Assembly: GCA_029560585.1 (NCBI GenBank)
Contig: JAKQKQ010000189.1
Span: 1 to 64,000 of the forward strand
Origin: Verrucomicrobiota bacterium
Lineage (GTDB): Bacteria; Verrucomicrobiota; Verrucomicrobiia; JADLBR01
Length of the DNA: 64,000 bases
Direction of reading: 5' to 3'
Positions 8,272 to 13,515 of this stretch are shown here, in pieces. The notes beneath the pieces are model-generated. The model was not told where the DNA came from and ran no database searches. It saw only the letters and a program-made list of their open reading frames with translations. Each line of letters starts with the position of its first letter. Position 1 is the stretch's first letter. Both the position numbers and the translations under genes were made by a program.

Positions 8272-8571
8272 AAGAAGCGCTTCACCCTACGCAGGTGCCC
8301 GCCGCTGAAAAGCCAAAATCACGCGCTGGCGCGCGGTCACCATGGCATTGGGCTGTTCGACGGCAACCTGTTGGAGTCCAGCCGATAGGCTGAATCGGGC
8401 ACGAAACAGGCTCGAGCCTGGACTCCAACGGCTTCGGTCGAGCGAACCAAAAGCCCTGGCCCCGTCACACCCCGCCCGAATAGGCCCAAAAAAGTCCTCC
8501 GCCACCCCATCGGACGCTGGAGTTTCCAACGAAAGGGGGCTTAATTCAATATTTGGACGACTGACGCGCGC
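8272..8571. other. divergent intergenic region, ndk / cdaA-ybbR
   Basis: This 300-bp gap separates divergently transcribed genes and should carry both promoters, but no clear -35/-10 pair stands out. Its only obvious structure is the inverted repeat at 8370-8429. Confidence 0.6.
8370..8429. repeat. REPIN-like inverted repeat (GTTGGAGTCCAG arms)
   Basis: Two 12-base arms, GTTGGAGTCCAG at 8370-8381 and its exact reverse complement at 8418-8429, face each other across 36 bp. Each half also contains its own hairpin: CAGCC-gata-GGCTG on the left and the palindrome CAGGCTCGAGCCTG on the right. Two imperfect palindromes in inverted orientation is the layout of REPIN or BIME-type elements. There is no T-tract, and both flanking genes point away, so it is not a terminator for either. 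Confidence 0.65.
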
Positions 8572-10185
8572 ATGCCAAACCTGCCACAGCTAGGACCCCT
8601 CAACCCCTTCTGGAGGCACGCCATCGACATCGCCGTCTCCGTCCTCATCCTCCGCGTCACACTGGGCTGGCTCGTGACGTACAGGCGCCTTGTGCAGTTC
8701 CTCCTCCTGTTCGTTGCCCTCATCGGCATGGGATGGATCGTCAGCCAGCTCAACCTCCCCCTCGCCCAGGTCCTTGGCCTTATCCTCATCATCCCGCTCC
8801 TCGTGTTGCTCATGCTCAGCATCGTGCCCGAGTTCCGCCGCATCTACGAATCGGCCAGCGTGGGCAGGATCTTTGCCGTCCGGCGCTCGCGCGAGGAAGA
8901 GATGGTCGCCACCATTATCGATACCGTCCGCCAGCTCTCCGAAAACCGCTGCGGCGCCATCCTCGTCTTTCCAAAGCGCGACGACATCAACCAATTCTGC
9001 CAGGGAGGAGAGCAGGTCGATGCGCGTGCCAACAAGAGCCTGCTGCTCTCCATCCTGAACACCGAATCCCCCCGCCATGACGGCGCCATTATCATCGACG
9101 GGGATCGCATCACCCGCATCGGTGCCGTGCTGCCCCTCGCTCCAGCCGAGGGCGTGGATCCGTCCTGGGGCACCCGCCATCTCGCCGCCCTCGGCCTGTG
9201 CCAGGCCAGCGATGCCGAGGTGATCGTGGTGTCCGAGGAACGCGGCACCGTCTCCTTCGGCAAGAATGGCCGACTCGAGCGTGTCGACTTCGCCGATGAG
9301 CAGGCCGGCCGCCGCACGGTCGCCGGCGCCCTTGAGATCGACCTCGATCACACCCGCGGAAAGAAACGCCTCCCGTCCTCGATCTTGCTCTGGGGCCTCG
9401 CGGTGATCATCGGCGCATCGGGTTCGCTGGGTGTCGAGGGTCTCCGCAACCGCCTCTATCCTCGGCCCCCGGTCATCGTCTCGGCCACCGCCCAGATCGA
9501 GCTGACCGGCCTCACCAACACCCTTTTCCTCGCACAGCAAAGCCACAAGGAGGCGGCCGTCAGAATGCGCCTTCCAGAAGCCGCCCACGCACCGCTCGCC
9601 GACCTCGCTCTCTTTCGCCGGAAACCCAACCTCGACCAGCTCAAGCTCACCATCGATCTCTCCGGCGAAGGGGCAGGCGCCAAGGAACTGGTCCTGCAGC
9701 CACAGATGCTTGGCCAACTCCCCCTCGACTGGCAGGTTGAGAGCTTTGACCCCAATCGTATCCAGCTCGTGCTCGGTCCCATCAAACAGCTCGAGGCCAG
9801 CATCGAACCCCAGTTCTCACCCCCCCCGAAGGGATTGAAGATCAAGACCGTCACCGTCATCCCGCCCACCGTCCGCCTCGAAATCCGCGATCTGTTCTGG
9901 ACCCCAGACCGAAAACTGCGCACCGAGAAAATCGACATCTCGAGCCTCACCCTGCAGCAGCCGTCGCCCCCCGCCGCCACCACCAACGCCGTAGCAAATC
10001 CCCAGGTGCCCACCGCCACCAACGCACCTCCACACCTGCCCCCGCCCACCCAACCCGAACCCACGGAAGGTGACTTCACCTTCGCGGCAAAACTCGAGCT
10101 GCCATCCGGCGTGAAACTCATCGATGCCACCGGCAAGGATGTCGTGCGCATCAATCTCACGCTCATGAAATCGCAGAGGCGCTGA
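8572..10185 (+). CDS. diadenylate cyclase CdaA fused to a YbbR/CdaR-like regulator
   Basis: This 537-residue protein joins two proteins that are normally separate. Residues ~17-85 are three hydrophobic helices. Residues ~95-235 are a DisA_N diadenylate cyclase domain (two ATP to cyclic di-AMP) with ESPRHDGAIII (DGA near 170) and GTRHLAALG (200-208). A basic linker leads to a further membrane helix near 270-290. Residues ~300-535 are beta-rich and look like YbbR repeats, with a proline-rich insert near 450-495. CdaA and CdaR are adjacent genes in Firmicutes, and CdaR modulates CdaA. Here the sensor domain would lie outside the membrane on the same chain. The usual GTRHR motif reads GTRHL. Confidence 0.88.
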   Translation: MPNLPQLGPLNPFWRHAIDIAVSVLILRVTLGWLVTYRRLVQFLLLFVALIGMGWIVSQLNLPLAQVLGLILIIPLLVLLMLSIVPEFRRIYESASVGRIFAVRRSREEEMVATIIDTVRQLSENRCGAILVFPKRDDINQFCQGGEQVDARANKSLLLSILNTESPRHDGAIIIDGDRITRIGAVLPLAPAEGVDPSWGTRHLAALGLCQASDAEVIVVSEERGTVSFGKNGRLERVDFADEQAGRRTVAGALEIDLDHTRGKKRLPSSILLWGLAVIIGASGSLGVEGLRNRLYPRPPVIVSATAQIELTGLTNTLFLAQQSHKEAAVRMRLPEAAHAPLADLALFRRKPNLDQLKLTIDLSGEGAGAKELVLQPQMLGQLPLDWQVESFDPNRIQLVLGPIKQLEASIEPQFSPPPKGLKIKTVTVIPPTVRLEIRDLFWTPDRKLRTEKIDISSLTLQQPSPPAATTNAVANPQVPTATNAPPHLPPPTQPEPTEGDFTFAAKLELPSGVKLIDATGKDVVRINLTLMKSQRR

Positions 10186-13470: not shown

Positions 13471-13515
13471 GTTGGTTGTTGGTTGTTGGTTGTTGGTTGT
13501 TGGGTGTTGGGTGTA
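13471..13515 (+). repeat. heptanucleotide tandem repeat (GTTGGTT)
   Basis: Starting at GTTGGTTGTTGGTT, the 7-bp unit GTTGGTT repeats about four times and then decays into GTTGGGT units. It lies just upstream of the NUDIX start, between divergent genes. Similar TTGG-rich heptads occur at 61605-61695. Confidence 0.8.

Follow-up and report, generated by a model that had tools for sequence, protein, structure and literature searches.

The gene at positions 8572..10185 on the forward strand of the window, as we call the whole 64,000-nucleotide stretch analysed, encodes a diadenylate cyclase (DAC) domain to which the YbbR regulatory domain, a separate protein in the CdaA/CdaR pair, is covalently attached. 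We put the probability at roughly 0.68 that this fusion acts as a membrane-bound diadenylate cyclase with an attached YbbR part, responding to the envelope through DAC pairing and restraining potassium uptake. The fused cyclases are one clade apart from canonical CdaA and represent an old lineage of these enzymes that is seldom encountered.

Domain architecture of the fusion protein

The ATG-to-stop open frame, stop codon included, encodes 537 amino acids, a single chain in which N-terminal helices lead into a DAC domain, followed by one more helix and a pair of YbbR repeats. The N-terminal membrane helices (residues 12-96, 8605..8859, forward strand as are all features below) appear in the DSSP assignment of the model as three segments at residues 12-36, 38-59 and 63-96. 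Hydropathy places membrane segments at the N-terminus up to residue 85, plus one at residues 270-288. The DAC (DisA_N) domain occupies residues 118-234 (8923..9273; Pfam PF02457, E 1.1e-31) and carries the DGA motif at residues 170-172 (9079..9087). The segment at 270-288 forms the hydrophobic core of a fourth membrane helix modelled at residues 262-295 (9355..9456), and a segment of mean hydropathy of at least 1.6 occupies this place in 11 of the 13 members of the family alignment A2. Net charge is +1 before helix 4 and +3 after it, values that do not support the assumed direction of the predicted helix by the positive-inside rule. Beyond this helix, the model consists of strands only, except for one low-confidence helix. 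YbbR repeat 1 covers residues 301-404 (9472..9783, range from the full-length model) and repeat 2 residues 405-534 (9784..10173), the latter split by a Pro-rich insert at about residues 462-497 (9955..10062) with a pLDDT of about 41-59. Twelve prolines fall within residues 455-500 of the window protein, and the insert is absent from the other 12 members of A2. The sequence-only reading had described a DisA_N domain with DGA, a membrane helix behind it and a YbbR-like part with a proline-rich insert. This anatomy is right, and the inference drawn from it, an extracytoplasmic sensor hard-wired to cyclic di-AMP (c-di-AMP) synthesis, is reasonable.

The C-terminal half as YbbR

The same reading was to be refuted by a C-terminal half lacking YbbR similarity in profile search or structure prediction, and single-sequence profile search alone gave that outcome. 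Searched by hmmscan as a single sequence, neither the window protein nor its C-terminal part alone matches Pfam YbbR at E<=10. This negative is overturned because the family profile, hhalign and structure matches, Foldseek included, all show YbbR. Within the family, Pfam YbbR matches two of 13 members (best E 1.9e-6), namely G003 at 28.5 bits against a cut-off of 22.3 and G083 below the cut-off, and it lands on repeat 2 in the relatives L063 and L068. A profile built from 13 C-terminal parts was compared with the PDB, where the top two of seven rows were both YbbR structures, 5hqh (Lmo2119, which we take to be Listeria CdaR; E 5.8e-4) and 2kq1 (BH0266; E 1.8e-3). Alignment by hhalign to seven proteins encoded beside canonical cdaA reached a probability of 95.3 (E 2.1e-8); none of 10 column shuffles exceeded 0.3. 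One of these seven proteins, L007, scores 62.8 bits for Pfam YbbR.

Fold comparisons point the same way. Residues 297-537 modelled alone have a mean pLDDT of 82.8; Foldseek returned three matches at E<=0.001, all of them YbbR structures and none other at that threshold, and all five matches at Z>=8 in the VIA fold search of the C-terminal model were YbbR as well. Repeat 1 superimposes on 3lyw (Z 10.5, rmsd 2.0, 85 residues aligned) and repeat 2 on 2kxy (Z 7.3, rmsd 3.9, 94 aligned), while 4qdy spans both repeats over 176 aligned residues at an rmsd of 8.3. Repeat 1 is clear, and repeat 2 is weaker by fold yet is the one that Pfam matches in relatives; a direct comparison of the two repeats is weak (probability 10.9). 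Ribosomal L25-like proteins come after YbbR among the fold matches, at Z of about 5-6, and were taken to reflect a common beta arrangement. The YbbR parts of relatives diverge strongly, with 19-31% identity to that of the window protein. Agreement among three routes (family profile, profile-profile comparison and predicted fold) confirms the assignment of the C-terminal half as YbbR at the level of sequence and model.

Cyclase domain and active-site motif

The DAC domain of the window protein scores 109.3 bits against a Pfam cut-off of 27 and is predicted to adopt the fold of solved CdaA/DacA cyclases (model against S. aureus DacA 6gyw: Z 24.5, rmsd 1.6, 151 residues aligned). The H-D170-G-A expected of a CdaA-type cyclase is present, and the membrane helices that such an enzyme requires are predicted ahead of the domain, before residue 97. 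Pfam CdaA_N has no match to the window protein at E<=10, and the NCBIfam CdaA equivalog TIGR00159 aligns over residues 8-238 at 133.3 bits, under its cut-off of 188.8. The RHR motif of CdaA-type cyclases is replaced by RHL (residues 202-204, 9175..9183) in the window protein (P0001) and 14 relatives, a substitution that the sequence-only reading overlooked. In the alignment, which omits L126 from the other-phyla set, L204 is found in 15/15 fused proteins, compared to arginine in 24/24 canonical proteins of the class. Second DACs from the fused genomes, where read, have arginine as the third residue in six of six cases. All 15 fused proteins retain the six other aligned active-site residues, D170, L187, T201, R202, H203 and E222; their counterparts in Listeria CdaA are offset by one residue (Asp171, Leu188, Thr202, the R203-H204 pair and Glu223).

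As far as sequence goes, RHL in place of RHR would count against an active cyclase. M. tuberculosis DacA lost its activity when the whole RHR motif was replaced by AAA, according to a passage of PMC3328451. Leucine also occupies the third position in loci of cyanobacteria, Cloacimonadota and Marinimicrobia, among others, including the RHL form in Prochlorococcus/Synechococcus loci, so RHL need not mean inactivity; these other-phyla loci were picked by patterns including GTRHLAA and their count is not independent. Two divergent DAC proteins of about 455 amino acids in family f6, L030 (G007) and L031 (G015), carry the motifs IDGA and GARHEAA in an architecture that differs from the fusion. Weak DAC scores also occur in family f15 and others.

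Distribution and phylogeny

The fusion recurs well outside the window, as a survey of further genomes revealed. A three-row profile searched over 384 genomes of the class found near-full-length matches in 15, the window's included, at E<=1e-105 with the next match at 1e-43, and the 15 genomes are spread over seven family codes. In a phylum-wide draw of 387 genomes, profile A2 matched three at E<=1e-60, all of the window's class. A single-protein pattern scan of genome contigs gave no match. An assembly or frameshift artefact is ruled out, because the same architecture occurs in 14 further genomes. In a quick DAC tree of 60 rows, in which L125 and L062 sit on long branches, the 15 fused DACs lie on one side of a branch with SH-aLRT 99 and the 24 canonical DACs of the class likewise form one group (SH-aLRT 99). 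A recent joining of a neighboring cdaA-cdaR pair is not supported, since the fused DACs form their own clade, and is also disfavoured by the second DAC kept in most fused genomes (11/15).

Related architectures exist beyond this clade. A Desulfobacterales metagenome-assembled genome encodes CdaA_N, DAC and YbbR in one 475-aa frame (L125, JAKSAX010000340.1), all above their cut-offs and with YbbR at 40.4 bits in two stretches. It shares the RHL motif and differs in falling outside the window's clade on the DAC tree, as a single sequence on a long branch. Two verrucomicrobial DAC proteins of 406 amino acids, L076 (G134) and L078 (G055), combine CdaA_N and DAC with a downstream hydrophobic stretch and then a short tail resembling one YbbR repeat by eye, with no Pfam YbbR match at E<=10. 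They differ from the fusion in having the motif RHA and form a clade of their own (support 100).

Compared to CdaA (DacA) and CdaR (YbbR) of Firmicutes, encoded in the cdaA-cdaR-glmM operon, the fusion shares the N-terminal helices with DAC and the YbbR repeats, which are extracytoplasmic there, and would combine the same two functions as read from its sequence. It differs in being one chain instead of two, in having RHL instead of RHR, and in not lying next to glmM. CdaR is a separate membrane protein encoded beside cdaA; here, YbbR lies in the DAC chain. Specialists know CdaA and CdaR, and the fusion may have been described earlier, for example within the classification of DAC architectures reportedly given by Galperin in 2023 ('All DACs in a row'), which would be a likely place for it. 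The open-licence PMC literature yielded no listing naming the fusion.

Genomic setting

Eleven of the 15 fused genomes contain two DAC matches and four contain one. The second-DAC loci read were those outside G111, G216 and G234. Seven of them (G042, G083, G130, G135, G148, G229 and G264) place the second DAC beside glmM, too close for a separate cdaR, and in G003 it sits at a contig end. A second DAC was not found in the window's genome (G000), G008 or G091. The single DAC of G088 probably reflects an assembly gap, and glmM over the cut-off was not found there either. In G008, G091 and G001, the last a genus mate of the window's genome, the sequence ahead of glmM is free of DAC over 3.1 kb or more (3.2 kb in G008). 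In the window's genome, glmM starts 375 bases from the end of another contig and these 375 bases hold no recognisable DAC; neither the window nor the fused loci searched contain a match to glmM. The fusion is probably the sole DAC in the window's genus, where both assemblies are fragmentary and the fusion's place in G001 is a gap. Its absence from G001 is uninformative, with both flanking-gene contigs ending at the matches.

Outside the fusion, YbbR matches at E<=0.01 were counted in 40 of the 369 genomes that lack it, the match in G242 having internal stops, vs 0 of the 15 that have it, the match in G003 sitting in its fusion. Replacement of CdaR by the fusion is not supported, as this difference is allowed by chance. 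In several genomes without the fusion, glmM follows cdaA so closely that little space is left for cdaR. Shared neighbors of the fusion gene are limited to close relatives, none of the window's neighbors tested was present in 25 loci, and PADLOC gave no match for anti-phage defence. Repeats were observed at several places in the window. Between ndk and the fusion gene, positions 8330-8487 hold a REP- or MITE-like dispersed repeat with over 40 further matches across the window's genome. It contains an imperfect inverted repeat whose folding surpasses that of 200 shuffles (z -3.9 as DNA). Two 75-nt direct repeats, 97% alike and starting 123 bases apart, lie at positions 64-261, and the heptamer GTTGGTT is repeated 6.3 times at positions 13471-13514.

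Predicted cyclic di-AMP signaling in the class

The sequence-only reading took the fusion to imply a c-di-AMP system in this lineage, and the genomes support a predicted system broader than it had thought. A DAC match is present in 360 of 384 class genomes, and all 18 genomes examined for it encode a PgpH-type 7TM-7TMR_HD protein; that of the window's genome is a candidate phosphodiesterase (G000:C323, PF07698 at 85.7 bits against a cut-off of 29.4). Riboswitches for c-di-AMP (RF00379) were found in five of these 18 (G008, G148, G264, G229 and G042, the gene downstream in G042 being outside the reading), with none in the window's genome (149 candidates, 105 scored). Those at L171, L172, L173 and L174 stand directly before genes for potassium uptake (kup, kdpA) or before one of a permease family. 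The riboswitch lies directly upstream of a K_trans (Kup) potassium transporter gene in G008, of kdpA in G148 and G264, and of an amino-acid-permease-family gene, presumably 'KimA-like', in G229. G148, G264 and G229 also have an RHR DAC. In the 97%-complete assembly of G008, the fusion is the only detected DAC. Either a working fused DAC or a second DAC lost from the assembly would account for the G008 riboswitch, which is otherwise puzzling. This genome, with its sole detected DAC fused and a riboswitch before the Kup gene, provides the best evidence that the fusion would make c-di-AMP.

Proposed mechanism and alternatives

We suggest that the N-terminal helices and DAC take the CdaA arrangement, which puts the cyclase in the cytoplasm, and that helix 4 would carry the YbbR pair across the inner membrane to its outer face. 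The order of parts fits a hard-wired extracytoplasmic sensor. DAC cyclases have to come face to face for two ATP to be joined, and YbbR could thus set the output through DAC pairing: the envelope state felt by YbbR would alter the pairing of DAC domains, with one sensor per cyclase. The c-di-AMP produced might then restrain potassium uptake, as the riboswitch-controlled kup and kdp genes of relatives suggest, and would be removed by the PgpH-type phosphodiesterase. Where the two are separate proteins, CdaR works on CdaA via its transmembrane region, according to passages of PMC8573169 and PMC8316131. The RHL motif, the TIGR00159 score below its cut-off, the absence of a CdaA_N match and the charges around helix 4 count against the envelope-responsive cyclase. 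In addition, the second DAC in most fused genomes could supply c-di-AMP, and the window's genome lacks a detected riboswitch.

An unlikely alternative is that the fused protein is a weak or dead DAC: its RHL site would bind ATP or c-di-AMP, and the protein would serve as an envelope sensor pairing with and controlling the canonical RHR CdaA. The invariant leucine in all 15 proteins would fit such a pseudo-cyclase, as would the second DAC in 11 of 15 genomes, an RHR protein in all six aligned. Against it stand the three genomes in which no second DAC was found and the DAC-free stretches upstream of glmM in G008, G091 and G001. The six other aligned active-site residues are kept, RHL is also the form of the pattern-picked Prochlorococcus/Synechococcus loci, and G008 has its riboswitch. 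The YbbR repeats might instead be an anchor or a scaffold binding peptidoglycan or envelope proteins, placing the cyclase rather than changing its activity, which we consider quite improbable. The strong divergence of the repeats and a signal for CdaR that is described as unknown (in a passage of PMC9259658) would agree with a scaffold, but altered cdaR changes c-di-AMP levels in other bacteria, as parts of PMC9259658 and PMC8316131 describe.

A further and less likely reading is that, in part of this class, the CdaA-CdaR-GlmM module has been divided between two cyclases: an RHR CdaA set against glmM, leaving cdaR no space, and an RHL enzyme that carries its own envelope sensor. Cell-wall supply and envelope state would then be separate inputs to one c-di-AMP pool, and the self-sensing enzyme would be the only one left in the window's genus, in G008 and in G091. 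How CdaR controls CdaA and what CdaR senses are described as open in passages of PMC8573169 and PMC9259658. The fusion is a natural one-to-one covalent version that avoids rebuilding a two-protein membrane complex, and one construct could therefore serve for both structure and signal search. The conserved RHL clade, the riboswitch link and the use as a one-chain model would be most useful to specialists, and the conserved RHL motif offers a test of how far the 'essential' RHR motif can be dispensed with.
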